NCBI GenBank assembly: GCA_023381755.1
Contig: JAMCUF010000013.1
Coordinates: forward strand, 1-46,031
Length of the DNA: 46,031 nucleotides
Direction of reading: 5' to 3'
Origin: Deltaproteobacteria bacterium
GTDB taxonomy: Bacteria > SZUA-79 > Acidulodesulfobacterales > Acidulodesulfobacteraceae
Part shown: positions 3,700-44,594 of the stretch, piece after piece
How positions within the stretch are numbered: the stretch's first letter is position 1
Layout of the letters: each line of letters begins with the position of its first letter
Notes under the pieces: generated by a model
The model's database searches: none
Told to the model about the DNA's origin: nothing
The model's input: the letters and a program-made list of their open reading frames with translations, nothing else
Program-made: the position numbers and the translations under genes

Positions 3700-5076
3700 A
3701 TGCTTTCAAAATTAAACAGTTTTTTTTCTTCCGTTAAGTTAGCCATATTCCTGTTTATATCAATTGCCGTGGTTTCGATAATAGGGACATTTATAAACCA
3801 GGGCAATACTATGGCGCAATACAAGATTATATACGGGGCGAAGGTCTTTGCAACCTTATATTGGCTTGGGTTTTTAAATATATATAATTCCTGGTATTTT
3901 ATCGGGCTTGCCGCCTTATTAATGATAAATCTTTTGACGGCATCGATAAACAGATTCCCCCGGACATTGAGCGCAGTTTTTGGACCATATCCGTCCTTTA
4001 AAGAGGCGGCGGAGAAAAAGAGCCCTAAAGCCGTATATGAAAGTTTTGAGTCAAAACAGGGTATTTTTGAAGTTGTAAGCGTTTTAAAAGGCGTTTTCGG
4101 ATCCCCTCTCAAAGAATCCAACGCCCCCGTTTCGGGAGAGAAAGAATTATACTATTCAAAAAATTCAATATTTAGATTTTCTTCCTATATTGCGCACCTC
4201 AGTGTTATAATAATTATCATAGGCGTATTATTAACGGTAAAATATGGTTTCAGGTCTTACACTAACATTAAAGTGGGGGAAAAGACAAATGTTTCGTATC
4301 TGATAGAAAACAACAAACCCATAAAACTCCCTTTCACCATCAGGCTCGATAAATATGAAACCAAATATTACCCGGACGGAATACCGAAATCTTATATTAG
4401 CAAAATTAGCATAATTAAAAGGCATACGAGGGTTCTTACCAAAGATATTAAAGTAAATCATCCGTTGACGTATAACGGCATAACCATATATCAATCCAGT
4501 TACGGCCACTACAAACCGGCGGCCGCCAGGCTTCTTGTCCTTAATTTAAAAAACCGCAATTACAAAAGGGCTATCGATGCCCGGCCTGGAACATTTTATG
4601 ATCTAAAAAAAGAAAACATAAGATTCAAGTTTACCCTCAAGAAGAATCCTAAAAAATCCGAAGTACCTTTTTTTATTGCCGTTTATAACAATAAGAATAA
4701 AAAAGATTTTCAGAAATTAAACTTTAATATTCTGCCCGTTAAAAATCACAACCACAAGGTTCCATTAATCTTCGCAAAATATCAAAATACAGTTTTCTTA
4801 TACAACGGTATAAAAAATTATTATTACAGCGGGGTCGAAATAACTAAAAATTCTTACACTTCGGTTGTATGGGTTGGCTCCATCATACTTATTATTGCCC
4901 TGTTTTTTTCATTTTTCTTTAATCAGCAAGAAACATGGGCAAGGTTGATGCCCAAAAATGGAGGGGAAGTGGTGGGCGTAGAGATATTATCGATCCCCCG
5001 CAAGAAATTTCCATCGTTTTACAGAAAATTCGGTGAAAAAATAGCGAATATAAAAAATAAACTTAACCTAATCTAA
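3700..5076 (+). CDS. resB: ResB-like cytochrome c biogenesis protein
   Basis: 458 aa; N-terminal TM segment (KLAIFLFISIAVVSIIGTFINQG), NGITIYQSSYG and C-terminal TM; followed by ccsA. Confidence 0.9.
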   Translation: MLSKLNSFFSSVKLAIFLFISIAVVSIIGTFINQGNTMAQYKIIYGAKVFATLYWLGFLNIYNSWYFIGLAALLMINLLTASINRFPRTLSAVFGPYPSFKEAAEKKSPKAVYESFESKQGIFEVVSVLKGVFGSPLKESNAPVSGEKELYYSKNSIFRFSSYIAHLSVIIIIIGVLLTVKYGFRSYTNIKVGEKTNVSYLIENNKPIKLPFTIRLDKYETKYYPDGIPKSYISKISIIKRHTRVLTKDIKVNHPLTYNGITIYQSSYGHYKPAAARLLVLNLKNRNYKRAIDARPGTFYDLKKENIRFKFTLKKNPKKSEVPFFIAVYNNKNKKDFQKLNFNILPVKNHNHKVPLIFAKYQNTVFLYNGIKNYYYSGVEITKNSYTSVVWVGSIILIIALFFSFFFNQQETWARLMPKNGGEVVGVEILSIPRKKFPSFYRKFGEKIANIKNKLNLI

Positions 5077-5189: not shown

Positions 5190-6086
5190 ATGATTTCTCC
5201 AAACGTATCGGTGCTCGACGGTTCATTATTCTTTACGATATCTTTAATATTTATACTGCTGTCGTTTATCGGCTATTTTTCGTTTATATTTTCGGGTAAT
5301 AAGCCAATCGCTAAGTTATCTTTCGTTGCTTTGATTATAACCCTTGCGATACAAACATTTGCTTTTGCCCAAAGGTGGATTTACGCCTATAAGATTGGAA
5401 TAAACACGCCTCCGCTCGTTGACTTATACGATTCGCTGGTATTCTTTGCCTATGTTATTATCCTTGGTTTTATTTTTATCAGGATTTTTTATGATTTTGA
5501 TGCGCTCGGGTTTATTATAACATTGGTTTCCGCATTAGCGTTAGTCTTTGCATCATTTTCCCCGCTTGCCCCAAGCGCAATAGAACCTACCATTCCCGCG
5601 CTTCAAAGCTATTGGCTGCTTTATCATATTGTAACACTTTTTATAGCTTACGGGGCGTTTGGAGCATCCTTCGGCTTAGGCATTCTTTACCTGTTTAAAT
5701 ACAAAAAAGAAAGCGGCCATCTCAAGAAAGAAGGGAGGTTTTTAGGCCTTTTGCCTCCTTCAGCCATTATCGATGAAGCAATCTATAAAGTCATAGTATT
5801 CGGACTCTTATTTTTAACCGCGGGTATTGTTATCGGCGCTGCATGGGCCGATAGCGCATGGGGGGGGTTCTGGAGCTGGGACCCGAAGGAGACATGGTCT
5901 CTCATAACATGGCTTACTTATATCTTGTTCATACATGCCAGGGTTACAAAGGGTTGGGGCGGAAAAAGGATGGCATGGATTGCGGTTATCGGATTTGCAG
6001 TGGTGATATTTTGTTATCTGGGGGTAGACCTGATAATTCCCGGTCTCCATTCTTATGCAACGCCGGGGTCAACGCCGGTATTATAA
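5190..6086 (+). CDS. ccsA: Cytochrome c biogenesis protein CcsA/ResC (system II)
   Basis: 298 aa polytopic protein with WWD-type motif WADSAWGGFWSWDPKETWSLITWL and conserved His. Confidence 0.93.
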   Translation: MISPNVSVLDGSLFFTISLIFILLSFIGYFSFIFSGNKPIAKLSFVALIITLAIQTFAFAQRWIYAYKIGINTPPLVDLYDSLVFFAYVIILGFIFIRIFYDFDALGFIITLVSALALVFASFSPLAPSAIEPTIPALQSYWLLYHIVTLFIAYGAFGASFGLGILYLFKYKKESGHLKKEGRFLGLLPPSAIIDEAIYKVIVFGLLFLTAGIVIGAAWADSAWGGFWSWDPKETWSLITWLTYILFIHARVTKGWGGKRMAWIAVIGFAVVIFCYLGVDLIIPGLHSYATPGSTPVL

Positions 6087-39983: not shown

Positions 39984-40373
39984 ATGAAAAAGGGTTTTAC
40001 AGTTATTTTTATTATTCTTGTTGTTGTTTTAGGCTATATCGTCGTTCATGCCATTACCTCTCCGGTCAAGTTATCGGCCGCACAGCTTGGGGCAGAATTG
40101 ATCCAATCCAATAAAGCGGGCATTGATTGTTTTGCATGCCATATTATAGACGGAAAGGGCGGCACTATAGGGCCTGACCTCTCAAAAGAAGCTCTGCTTA
40201 AGCACTCTATCAAATGGCTCGAGGTTCAAATACAGGAACCGTCAAAGCATTTTAAACCGGCTTCCATGGTTAAAATAAACGGCAAAACATATATGGCTAT
40301 CATGCCAGACCACAAAATGCTTTCCAAAAAAGAGCTTTTTGAGCTCGCCTCCTATTTGGACGGGCTTCGCTGA
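39984..40373 (+). CDS. Small c-type cytochrome, membrane-anchored or secreted
   Basis: N-terminal signal/TM, GIDCFACHIIDGKGGTIGPDLS heme c motif. Confidence 0.9.
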   Translation: MKKGFTVIFIILVVVLGYIVVHAITSPVKLSAAQLGAELIQSNKAGIDCFACHIIDGKGGTIGPDLSKEALLKHSIKWLEVQIQEPSKHFKPASMVKINGKTYMAIMPDHKMLSKKELFELASYLDGLR

Positions 40374-40509: not shown

Positions 40510-40598
40510 GTTTTACTTAACGTATATTGGGCTGGGAATGAAATGCGAAATGTATTTTAAGTTAATTTTGCATGCATATTTTAGATTTGGAGGCAAAA

Positions 40599-41795
40599 TT
40601 GAAGATAATAAATTTTGACCATTTTGCGGCGACAAGTATGAGACAGGAAGTTAAAGAGGCCATGGATCCTTTTTTTATCAACGAATACGGTAATCCACAG
40701 AGTATTCACGCGCTTAGCGACGAGCCGAGAGAGGCTCTCGCCAGGGCAAGGCTTCAGGCGGCGGACCTTTTAAACGCTACAAGCAACGAGGTCATATTTA
40801 CTTCAAGCGGCTCGGAATCCAATAATCTTGCAATCAAGGGCACGGCTTTTGCAAGGATGGATAAAGGGAAGCATATTATAGTTTCTAAAATAGAACATTT
40901 TAGCGTTTTAAACGCCGTTAAGTCTTTAACCAAGCTTGGTTTTGAGGTTAGCGAGGTTTCCGTTGACAAATACGGCTTAGTTGATCCGCAGGACGTTAAA
41001 AACGCCTTAAGAAAGGATACGATTCTTGTCAGTATAACGCACGCGTCGAATGAAATCGGCACCATTCAAGACATCAAAGAAATTTCCAGAATAGTTCACG
41101 AGAACTCTGGAGCATACATGCATGCCGATGCAAATACATCTTGCGGGTTTATCGAAACCGACGTTAAGGAGTTGGGCGCGGATATGCTTTCCGCCGCACC
41201 GCACAGATTTTACGGCCCTAAAGGGACGGGGCTTTTTTACCTTAAAAAGGGTGTGCGGGTGATGCCTTTAATTGACGGCGGCATTCAGGAGTTTGGAAGG
41301 AGGGCGGGCACCGAAAATATTCCCGCCATCGTAGGCGCGGGCGTTGCGTGTGAGCTGGCAAAAAAGGAATTGAAGGACAGGACGGCGCATTTGCTTCCTA
41401 TCCAAAAAGAGATTATAAGCGGGGTATTAAGCGGGCTTGACGAGGTGTATTTAAACGGGCATCCCGAAAAAAGACTGCCTAATAACATCAATTTTGTGGT
41501 TAAGTATATCGAGGGCGAATCCATGCTTATGTGGTTAAACAACAACGGGATTATGGTGGCAAGCGGTTCTGCCTGCACATCCAAGATTTTAAAATCGTCC
41601 CATGTTTTAAGCGCGATAGGGGTTGACCCGGCGCTTGCTCAGGGCTCCTTGCTTATCTCTTTAGGGCAGGATAACTCATTGGAAGACGCTGCATTTTTTA
41701 TCAAGGAGCTTCCGGGGGTAGTTAATAAATTAAGGCAGATGTCTCCTCTTTATGAAGGGATTAAAAAGGAAAATAAAGCACAAAAAGATAAATAA
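40599..41795 (+). CDS. NifS/IscS-family cysteine desulfurase homologue lacking PLP lysine (TTG start)
   Basis: Class V aminotransferase fold; retains SGSACTS catalytic-Cys loop and EH(F)SVL His; has SAAPHRFYGPKG instead of SxxHKxxGPKG. SD GGAGG 40589-40593 favours TTG 40599. Confidence 0.9.
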   Translation: MKIINFDHFAATSMRQEVKEAMDPFFINEYGNPQSIHALSDEPREALARARLQAADLLNATSNEVIFTSSGSESNNLAIKGTAFARMDKGKHIIVSKIEHFSVLNAVKSLTKLGFEVSEVSVDKYGLVDPQDVKNALRKDTILVSITHASNEIGTIQDIKEISRIVHENSGAYMHADANTSCGFIETDVKELGADMLSAAPHRFYGPKGTGLFYLKKGVRVMPLIDGGIQEFGRRAGTENIPAIVGAGVACELAKKELKDRTAHLLPIQKEIISGVLSGLDEVYLNGHPEKRLPNNINFVVKYIEGESMLMWLNNNGIMVASGSACTSKILKSSHVLSAIGVDPALAQGSLLISLGQDNSLEDAAFFIKELPGVVNKLRQMSPLYEGIKKENKAQKDK

Positions 41796-41833: not shown

Positions 41834-42274
41834 ATGCCGATATATTCGGAAAAAGTCATGGATCACTTTCAGAATCCAAGGAATGTGGGAGAGATTGAAA
41901 ACGCCGATGGCGTGGGAGAACTTGGCAATCCTACCTGCGGCGATATAATGAAGATTTATATCAAAGTTAAAGACGATAAAATCGAAGATGTAAAGTTCAA
42001 GACTTTTGGTTGCGGCGCTGCGATTGCAACGAGTTCTATGGTGACCGAGCTTATTAAAGGAAAGACGCTGGAGGAAGCCGAAAAGATTTCCAATGAGACC
42101 GTTGCGGAGGCTTTAGACGGCCTTCCCCCCGTTAAAATGCATTGTTCCAATCTTGCGGCGGATGCGCTTCACCTTGCCATAGAAGATTACAGGGCGAGAA
42201 AAGAAGGCAAGGGCCCGATAGGCAGGGTGGAAACGCCTGAGCATGATGAAAGCGACATTCTTGAACATACTTGA
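41834..42274 (+). CDS. iscU: IscU/NifU N-terminal-type Fe-S scaffold protein
   Basis: YSEKVMDHFQNPRNVG, GNPTCGDIMKIYIKV, FKTFGCGAAIATSSMVTELIKGKTLEEA, PPVKMHCSNLAADAL; all three ligand Cys and the Asp retained. Confidence 0.95.
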   Translation: MPIYSEKVMDHFQNPRNVGEIENADGVGELGNPTCGDIMKIYIKVKDDKIEDVKFKTFGCGAAIATSSMVTELIKGKTLEEAEKISNETVAEALDGLPPVKMHCSNLAADALHLAIEDYRARKEGKGPIGRVETPEHDESDILEHT

Positions 42275-42360: not shown

Positions 42361-42585
42361 ATGAAGCACGATTACGAACTTGACACATTCGGCTTGTTCT
42401 GCCCTGTTCCCGTTATGAAGGTAATAGAGGAGCTTAAAAACATCCCCGAGGGCTCCGTATTAAAAGTAATAGCCTCTGACGGGGGCATTATCGAGGATTT
42501 AAAAAGCTACTGCAAAAAAACAAATCATGATTTTTTGTCCTATGAAATTAATCTTCCGGAATATATAGTCTATGTAAAAAAATAG
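42361..42585 (+). CDS. tusA: TusA/SirA-like sulfur carrier
   Basis: 74 aa; DTFGLFCPVPVMKVIEELKNIPEGSVLKVIASD. Confidence 0.92.
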   Translation: MKHDYELDTFGLFCPVPVMKVIEELKNIPEGSVLKVIASDGGIIEDLKSYCKKTNHDFLSYEINLPEYIVYVKK

Positions 42586-42601: not shown

Positions 42602-42629
42602 TTGACATTAAAAAAATAGGTATTATAAT
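42602..42629 (+). promoter_or_regulatory. Consensus sigma-70 promoter
   Basis: TTGACA(42602-42607)-16 bp-TATAAT(42624-42629); second TATAAT at 42635-42640. Confidence 0.85.
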
Positions 42630-42772
42630 CAGATTATAATATACAAAGAAATAAAAATATTTAAAATATTCAAGGAGGCGAAAAGGAAGAAGATAAAATT
42701 TACAGTTTGTTGCATGGCAGTTTCGTTTTTTTATTAATTTTTAATTTTAACTTTACTAAAGAGAGGAAAGTT

Positions 42773-44182
42773 ATGAAAAAAAAACAGGTATTAACATTAA
42801 TTGCTTTATTTATTTTAGCCGTTTCATTTGCCATGTCGCCGAAAAAGGCAAGCGCGATTCCGTCGTTTGCGCAAAAATACCATTTTTCATGTGCGGTTTG
42901 CCATACGGTATTTCCGAACTTAAACCCGTTTGGCAGGGAATTTTGGAGAAATGGCTTCAGGCTTCCCGGAACGAACGGCACTCCCTCCGACGCAACGCAG
43001 ATAACCGAAGGCTTGAGTCTCCCAAACCCATGGCCGATTCCTATTATGATTGAGCCTATTATCGGTTATCAGCATTACACGAACGAGAATGTGCCCGCGG
43101 TTAACGGCACCCCGGCAGATGCGTTTAGCGCCGGTGCGGACGTGGTGGCCGGCGGCGCATTTAAACTTTATACCCCGCTTGCAAATTCATTGTCGTTTTA
43201 TGTTCATTACGGGGCAACCCCGCTTAAGGCAAAACAGATATTTGCATCCATTAACGGCTTAGGAAACGGTTTTGGGGTTCCGTCGCACTTGCTTAACCTG
43301 AAATTAGGCCAGGTTACAACCGCAAGTCCTTATTTTTACAGGCAGATGCCGTTCTATATCTTAGGCGGCCCCTTAGGCAACGGGCAGGGGTTAACTGTAG
43401 GCTACGACGCCGAATCGGCAGCGTTAATCCATAGCAGAAATGCAGGGTTTGCCATTTACGGAACGCCCGGCTATCATTTGTGGTATAAAATAACGCTAAC
43501 AAATGATAACGGCAGTTATATTGGCAGCAACCCAAACGGCGCAAGCAATGCGATGGAATATTCATATCAGTTGAAAGAATATGCCCAGATCCCGATGGGG
43601 CAGCTTGAATTTGGATATTACGGTGCGACAATTGCTCAGCCTGTTACGTCTGCCGGATATTCCTGGTCCGACCGCGTAGCGGTTAACGGCGTCGATGTGG
43701 ACATTGCAAATGACATTTATGAGCTTGGTTTGACGTATATGGTTCAGGGCGATAACCATCCATACGGAAATCCATCGCAGCCGCCCGCTAACTTTTATAA
43801 TGCCGGCGGCACCGTAATTGGCGACACACACTCATCCAACGGATATTCAACCTTTGAAGTTTACGGAAGATATTTATTTCCGCAGATTGGAAACGGTTTG
43901 ATGCTATCAGCCGATTATGCCCAGTATTCATGGACGCATAAAGATTTGCAGGAAGCATATAACGGGGCGGGGCAGACACCTGCCGCATGTTCCGATGCGG
44001 GGCTTTATGAGTCAGGTTCTTATGTATCCAGCAACGGTTGCATAAGCGAAGGCATAAAGGATGCGTTTGCAATCGAGGCCGAATACAACTTGGCGTACAA
44101 TGCCCATCTGTATCTTGCATATTTATTAACCAATAAAGCCCAGGACAATACGCTTGGAACGGGTCTTGATTTTGCATTCTAA
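42773..44182 (+). CDS. Fused N-terminal heme c / outer-membrane beta-barrel protein, Cyc2-like candidate
   Basis: 470 aa; signal peptide, AIPSFAQKYHFSCAVCHTVFPNLNPFGREFWRNGFRLPG, then alternating amphipathic strands and C-terminal aromatic ...NTLGTGLDFAF. Confidence 0.7.
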   Translation: MKKKQVLTLIALFILAVSFAMSPKKASAIPSFAQKYHFSCAVCHTVFPNLNPFGREFWRNGFRLPGTNGTPSDATQITEGLSLPNPWPIPIMIEPIIGYQHYTNENVPAVNGTPADAFSAGADVVAGGAFKLYTPLANSLSFYVHYGATPLKAKQIFASINGLGNGFGVPSHLLNLKLGQVTTASPYFYRQMPFYILGGPLGNGQGLTVGYDAESAALIHSRNAGFAIYGTPGYHLWYKITLTNDNGSYIGSNPNGASNAMEYSYQLKEYAQIPMGQLEFGYYGATIAQPVTSAGYSWSDRVAVNGVDVDIANDIYELGLTYMVQGDNHPYGNPSQPPANFYNAGGTVIGDTHSSNGYSTFEVYGRYLFPQIGNGLMLSADYAQYSWTHKDLQEAYNGAGQTPAACSDAGLYESGSYVSSNGCISEGIKDAFAIEAEYNLAYNAHLYLAYLLTNKAQDNTLGTGLDFAF

Positions 44183-44215
44183 TCCGGCTGCCTCAGGCAG
44201 TTATAAGATTTAAAA

Positions 44216-44247
44216 TTAAAGCGGGGGGATTAATCCCCCCGCTTTAA
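44216..44247. terminator. Perfect-palindrome terminator
   Basis: TTAAAGCGGGGGGATTAATCCCCCCGCTTTAA followed by TTTTGCCGTTTTT. Confidence 0.9.
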
Positions 44248-44318
44248 TTTTGCCGTTTTTATTAATCGTATTAATTATGTTAATTATAGTATTTATTATG
44301 GTTTATTTTTTTTAGCTT

Positions 44319-44594
44319 ATGAAAAAGATCGCAGTGATACTTACGAGAAGGTATTCCGAGGGGATTCGAATGGCTGCCGGGTTTAGCCTTTTGGACGACA
44401 AGGTCGATATTTACCTGTTGGATAAAGATTTCGATGCCGCGGCCATTCCGCTTATAGAACAATATCTTGAGATGATAAAGCCGGTCGCCGGCATTGGGCT
44501 ATATTCCAATTTTCAAAAAGAAGGGTTTAATTTTATATCCAGCGCTTATTTGGGAAAAAAGTTTTTGGAATACGATTATGTGATTCCGTACTAA
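44319..44594 (+). CDS. DsrE/DsrF-like small protein without cysteine
   Basis: 91 aa; MKKIAVILTRRYSEGIRMAAGFSLLDDKVDIYLLDKDFDAAA; no Cys residues. Confidence 0.55.
   Translation: MKKIAVILTRRYSEGIRMAAGFSLLDDKVDIYLLDKDFDAAAIPLIEQYLEMIKPVAGIGLYSNFQKEGFNFISSAYLGKKFLEYDYVIPY

Follow-up and report, generated by a model that had tools for sequence, protein, structure and literature searches.

We put at roughly 60% the probability that one of the proteins encoded in the window, the whole 46,031 nt stretch of DNA analysed here, is a Cyc2-family outer-membrane electron conduit whose favoured direction of flow is outward in most members of its phylum. By sequence, this protein, which we call Cyc2L, is a divergent member of the Cyc2 family, with a single-heme segment at its N-terminus and a predicted porin-like barrel behind it. 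The source genome belongs to the phylum Candidatus Acidulodesulfobacteriota (SZUA-79); it is a MAG (G000) of 0.88 Mb, estimated to be 85.6% complete, and its congeners, at 1.8-2.1 Mb, are about twice as large. Table 1 lists the features discussed below.

Table 1. Positions of cyc2L, its sequence elements and the linked genes in the window
Feature	Position	Strand	Size or basis
cyc2L (predicted fused monoheme cytochrome c/16-strand outer-membrane barrel)	42773..44182	+	469 aa
Signal peptide, residues 1-28 (...PKKASA/IPSF), MKKKQVLTLIALFILAVSFAMSPKKASA	42773..42856	+	read directly from sequence
Heme segment IPSFAQKYHFSCAVCHTVFPNLNPFGREFWRNGFR, CAVCH = residues 40-44	42857..42961	+	near-invariant in all relatives and paralogs
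Predicted barrel region, residues 91-469, 16 strands	43043..44179	+	two AlphaFold models
Sigma-70-type promoter, TTGACA-16-TATAAT	42602..42629	+	exact; near-exact or exact site in most relatives
Second Shine-Dalgarno-like motif, AAGGAGG(C), in the cyc2L 5' leader	42671..42678	+	alignment of 16 upstream regions
Intrinsic-terminator-like palindrome, 19 pairs	44211..44252	+	3' of cyc2L
Small monoheme cytochrome c, CFACH	39984..40373	+	129 aa; Pfam PF00034
nifS/iscS-type cysteine desulfurase	40572..41795	+	synteny; name read from sequence
nifU/iscU-type scaffold	41834..42274	+	synteny; name read from sequence
tusA/sirA-type sulfur carrier	42361..42585	+	synteny; name read from sequence
ResB, cytochrome c maturation system II	3700..5076	+	PF05140, E 4e-69
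CcsA-type cytochrome c assembly protein	5190..6086	+	PF01578, E 7e-48

The cyc2L open reading frame stays open upstream as far as a TTG at 42707. We assigned the start to the ATG at 42773 because relatives begin at an ATG that follows the conserved AGAGAGGAAAGTT, the ribosome site; conservation and the position of this site speak against the TTG, which we rejected. With the start corrected in this way, the signal peptide and the single heme c motif, CAVCH, that were described in an earlier, sequence-only reading are both present. The mature end of Cyc2L after the signal peptide is IPSFAQKYHFSCAVCHTVFPNLNPFGREFWRNGF, and the C-terminal residue is Phe, as is the case for many outer-membrane barrels. 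The same reading had noted a perfect consensus promoter and a perfect terminator, and both descriptions hold. The promoter boxes (TTGACA, 42602-42607; TATAAT, 42624-42629; 16 nt spacer) form the sole perfect match in the window, a perfect match was absent from all 5000 upstream regions simulated, and the corresponding site in most relatives lies 170-300 nt 5' of the cyc2L start. The palindrome 3' of the gene is perfect over its 19 pairs and is followed by CCG and then by a T-rich tract. The leader between promoter and gene holds another Shine-Dalgarno-like motif, AAGGAGG(T)G, which is conserved in relatives and lies some 100 nt 5' of the start codon, with no obvious leader open reading frame at this position; motifs of this kind stabilise some Bacillus mRNAs. 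No Rfam element was found in the cyc2L region. A 91 aa open reading frame without a Pfam match lies downstream of cyc2L, at 44319-44594, and has a counterpart at 72% identity in locus L002.

The heme segment supports the assignment to the Cyc2 family. CxxCH occurs once in Cyc2L and is invariant in 23 full-length relatives; nowhere else is the protein as conserved as in this motif and about 35 residues around it, even in paralogs whose barrels have diverged. Membership of the Cyc2 family has been defined by a signature motif, a PXL motif, length and a 16-strand barrel similar to OprO/OprP (PMC8406198). Where the signature is AXPXFAR[Q/K][T/Y], Cyc2L has AIPSFAQKY, so that A, P, F, A, K and Y match and Arg is replaced by Gln; one paralog clade has Glu at this position. 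The PXL motif is present just after CXXCH (CAVCH-TVF-PNL), and at 469 aa Cyc2L is longer than the required minimum of at least 365 aa. A strict PXFAR filter, or a search with the published signature, would drop the Cyc2L family owing to the Arg-to-Gln change.

Searches of Pfam, NCBIfam and PDB with the Cyc2L sequence gave no useful match; a TIGR04468 match (12 bits) and matches to nine-heme cytochromes were set aside as noise. In tblastn searches against plasmids, the N-terminal part matched "cytochrome C" genes from Caballeronia, Methylocystis and Ralstonia, among others, and a second round that used these finds as queries added proteins from an A. ferrooxidans plasmid and from Polymorphobacter. 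We compared the Cyc2L family by HHalign with seven such proteobacterial proteins of Cyc2 type (Caballeronia, Methylocystis, Paraburkholderia, Ideonella, Ralstonia, A. ferrooxidans plasmid and Polymorphobacter), most of which are encoded next to a c-type cytochrome or HiPIP gene. The seven share the heme pattern A-x-P-x-F-A-R-Q-T-G...C-x-x-C-H...P-x-L-T-P-[FY]-G-R-x-F-K-x-x-G-Y, although two of them also lack the signature Arg (FAAQT). The families align with a probability of 98.1 and an E value of 8e-14, over residues 2-81 of Cyc2L only.

Beyond residue 81, where this alignment stops, the Cyc2L barrel could not be aligned by HHalign with the Cyc2-type barrels. The Cyc2 family itself has been described as having low barrel conservation (PMC8406198), and we therefore dropped barrel sequence homology as a defining feature. 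The barrel is nonetheless predicted as a fold: each of two AlphaFold models has 16 strands, at modest confidence (pLDDT 63.6 and 62.8; pTM 0.61 and 0.58), with the heme segment below a pLDDT of 50. The closest solved folds found by Foldseek are the 16-strand porins OmpF, OmpC, PorB and Omp32 (E about 1e-9). OprO and OprP are absent from the best 50 PDB matches to the models, and a match in a viral library is to a protein annotated as porin O and P. The sequence-only reading had staked its Cyc2-type architecture on a predicted barrel and on conservation of CxxCH; that architecture is now backed by a predicted 16-strand porin fold, by phylum-wide conservation of CxxCH and by homology of the heme segment.

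A gene for a small monoheme cytochrome c, which the sequence-only reading had overlooked, lies upstream of cyc2L. It has a relative in all 30 phylum genomes. In 11 relatives the two genes are neighbours, with the cytochrome gene immediately 5' of cyc2L; nifS-nifU-tusA separates them in the window and at other loci. We consider the cytochrome a likely periplasmic partner of Cyc2L. The ResB/CcsA pair for system II cytochrome c maturation, named in the same reading, is borne out by its matches to PF05140 and PF01578.

The Cyc2L family is close to universal in the phylum. Its profile is present in 28 of 30 genomes, as one to six pieces or copies each, and in all 19 high-quality genomes (at least 90% complete, at most 5% contamination). 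The 28 loci in our genome collection are apparently all of the same lineage as the window; they include L013, from Candidatus Acididesulfobacter diazotrophicus AP1, and two loci of isolate SZUA-79. The family tree contains two diverged paralog groups, with divergent barrels and a heme segment that is near-invariant throughout. One group is found beside cydAB and a DsbD-like gene in genomes G008 and G010, with cydAB a few kb off in G010. The other group (L023 and L066) is surrounded by genes for proteins that carry three to seven heme-c sites; the L023 paralog is followed by genes for a Rieske protein, a cytochrome b and a heme-binding protein.

Two further observations concern these paralog loci. 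In two genomes of the window's genus, a longer Cyc2L paralog (541-555 aa) is encoded near cydAB and a DsbD_2 gene (L052, 5174-9710; L053, 317-5894). At two other loci, a Cyc2L paralog is set in a cluster of long proteins, each bearing three to seven heme-c sites (L023, 2777-13215; L066, 5995-15756), the second cluster also holding a cytochrome cd1-like protein; these could be extracellular electron-transfer clusters.

The direction in which Cyc2L would carry electrons depends on the respiratory genes that accompany it. Among the 19 high-quality genomes, 18 encode a bc-type complex and 15 encode CydA, but a full-length COX1, and hence a heme-copper cytochrome c oxidase, is present in only three. 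All of the 16 genomes that lack COX1 have the bc-type complex, and NorB-like and full cytochrome cd1 proteins are likewise absent from 13 of these 16. For these counts, COX1 matches in proteins of about 760 aa were scored as NorB-like by length and neighbours, and most weak PF02239 matches, which look like propeller repeats, were left out of the cytochrome cd1 total. Most genomes also have COX1-like matches of 140-150 aa, which we rejected as oxidases since those examined (G000 and G002) cover part of COX1 only; the protein concerned is a conserved membrane protein of about 140 aa (L062, 1340-1762, in G000; L067, 1194-1616, in G002). Relatives of MtrB/PioB were found in none of the 30 phylum genomes. 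No HiPIP was detected among the phylum genomes searched, nor was any rusticyanin-type or stand-alone small copper protein, copper-bind matches being confined to proteins of more than 670 aa in two genomes.

The substrate of cytochrome bd is quinol rather than cytochrome c, and the potential of quinol is far below that of Fe(III)/Fe(II) at low pH. Cytochrome bd therefore cannot serve as the downhill terminus for Fe(II) oxidation, and members without COX1 have no recognised low-pH route for electrons from Fe(II) to O2. Because the heme-copper cytochrome c oxidase is absent while the bc-type complex is kept, we favour outward flow in most members. Extracellular Fe(III), reached through Cyc2L, is the obvious candidate for an acceptor of electrons from cytochrome c reduced by the bc complex, although some genera may have alternative sinks: cytochrome c peroxidase is encoded in six genomes, all of one genus, and NO or nitrite reductases are possible. 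This argument applies at the level of the phylum. It is weaker for the window's own genus, in which two of four genomes encode a cbb3 oxidase, and the oxidases missing from the window's MAG mean little given its small size relative to its congeners.

The protein architecture, the homology of the heme segment, the linkage to a cytochrome c gene and the conservation throughout the phylum are results of this analysis. From them we infer an outer-membrane location, iron as the partner, the identity of the partner cytochrome and the direction of flow, as follows. The 16-strand barrel would lie in the outer membrane, and the N-terminal segment of about 60 residues would bind a single heme covalently; its probable site is the periplasmic mouth of the barrel, as proposed for Cyc2. 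This heme would exchange electrons with soluble extracellular iron on one side and with the periplasmic monoheme cytochrome c on the other, and the latter would link to the bc-type complex and the quinone pool. Electrons would preferentially run, in most members, from quinol through the bc complex and cytochrome c to Cyc2L and on to Fe(III); in members with a cbb3 oxidase, including two of the window's genus, electrons could also flow inward, with oxidation of Fe(II). For anaerobic At. ferrooxidans, a published model has bc1 feeding Cyc2, which acts as the terminal Fe(III) reductase (PMC7735108, PMC8790237), and Tan et al. raise Fe(III) respiration as a possibility for this order, in the text available to us without naming a reductase (PMC6776010). 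The broader proposal, that a Cyc2-family cytochrome-porin is core to a whole phylum of acid-mine bacteria, most of them without any cytochrome c oxidase, and runs mainly in reverse, as a terminal Fe(III) reductase fed by quinol, the bc complex and cytochrome c, is more tentative, and we give it somewhat less than even odds. For most members, reverse flow is at least as likely as Fe(II) oxidation.

The sequence-only reading had suggested Fe(II) oxidation or use of another extracellular donor; its electron conduit stands, but Fe(II) oxidation as the role is not established: the oxidase is missing from 16 of 19 high-quality genomes, all of which keep the bc complex. As a classical Fe(II) oxidase, Cyc2L would pass electrons from Fe(II) to cytochrome c and on to a terminal oxidase, and also uphill to NADH, as in Acidithiobacillus and Leptospirillum. 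Such a role has been shown for A. ferrooxidans Cyc2, Leptospirillum Cyt572 and Mariprofundus Cyc2 (PMC8406198). Iron oxidation was also inferred for the order by Tan et al., by analogy with Leptospirillum, and the distribution of the order was reported to correlate with ferrous iron (PMC6776010). Suitable oxidases do exist in a few members: G008 and G010 encode cbb3, and G022 encodes a full-length COX1. The lack of heme-copper cytochrome c oxidase in most high-quality genomes, the dependence of cytochrome bd on quinol and the lack of a rusticyanin-type protein in the phylum genomes nevertheless make this reading rather unlikely.

It is also conceivable, though we consider it quite improbable, that Cyc2L exchanges electrons with an extracellular partner other than dissolved iron, such as reduced sulfur compounds, a mineral surface or another cell. 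The function of Cluster 3 was called most uncertain by Keffer et al. (PMC8406198), the barrel sequence of Cyc2L is unlike those of the Cyc2-type proteins compared here, dsr and sqr genes are reported for these organisms by Tan et al. (PMC6776010), and the sulfur-handling genes nifS-nifU-tusA adjoin cyc2L in part of the phylum. This linkage is loose, however, because in 11 relatives those genes do not lie between the cytochrome c gene and cyc2L, and the heme segment is Cyc2-like. Since the fold search returned general 16-strand porins, Cyc2L might instead be an ordinary porin whose CxxCH is incidental or not loaded with heme. We regard this as scarcely credible: conservation peaks around CxxCH even in barrel-diverged paralogs, a cytochrome c gene is linked, and system II maturation genes are present. 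We retain a Cyc2-family conduit, with outward flow favoured in most members, as the preferred reading.

Cyc2L has been reported in part before, and is not a new discovery as such. Tan et al. (2019) describe a "cyt572-like" gene in all four genomes of the order, and in AP4 it is a top-20 transcript, with nifU, iscS and sirA also among the top transcripts (PMC6776010). The genome of AP1, from which L013 derives, is one of theirs and appears to carry a single copy of the Cyc2L family. Because the types of neighbouring gene agree and AP1 has this single copy, cyc2L and the cyt572-like gene very probably belong to the same family. The earlier suggestion that cyc2L is highly expressed is accordingly backed, for a member of the order, by this published metatranscriptome. 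In the main text of Tan et al. there is no mention of a fused barrel, a linked cytochrome c or the missing cytochrome c oxidase (PMC6776010).

The presence of Cyc2 is widely taken as a genetic marker of Fe(II) oxidation. Should genomes with Cyc2L be unable to pass electrons from Fe(II) to O2, cyc2 alone would be no proof of iron oxidation, and it may mark Fe(III) respiration instead.

Among known systems, Cyc2L most resembles Cyc2 and Cyt572, the latter being the characterised Cluster 3 Cyc2 homologue of Leptospirillum (PMC8406198). Shared features are a signal peptide, a single N-terminal CxxCH with A-x-P-x-F-A upstream of it and P-x-L and F-G-R-x-F-x-x-x-G-[YF] after it, a 16-strand barrel, a nearby c-type cytochrome gene and an acid-mine setting. 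Cyc2L differs in having QKY (EKY in one paralog group), then an invariant HF, where the Cyc2 consensus is RQT or RKY. Its barrel sequence, moreover, cannot be aligned with those of the seven Cyc2-type proteins compared. The rus operon of Acidithiobacillus (cyc2-cyc1-cup-coxBACD-rus) includes genes for an aa3 oxidase and rusticyanin, whereas neither is found beside cyc2L. The plasmid-borne Cyc2-type "cytochrome C" proteins (e.g. Caballeronia sp. SBC1 WP_206366205.1) have a homologous heme segment and a similar length, but their porin part cannot be aligned with that of Cyc2L, and their neighbours include HiPIP or other c-type cytochromes. MtrAB, MtoAB and PioAB resemble the proposed Cyc2L conduit in transferring electrons across the outer membrane, but do so with a multiheme cytochrome held in a separate, larger barrel.
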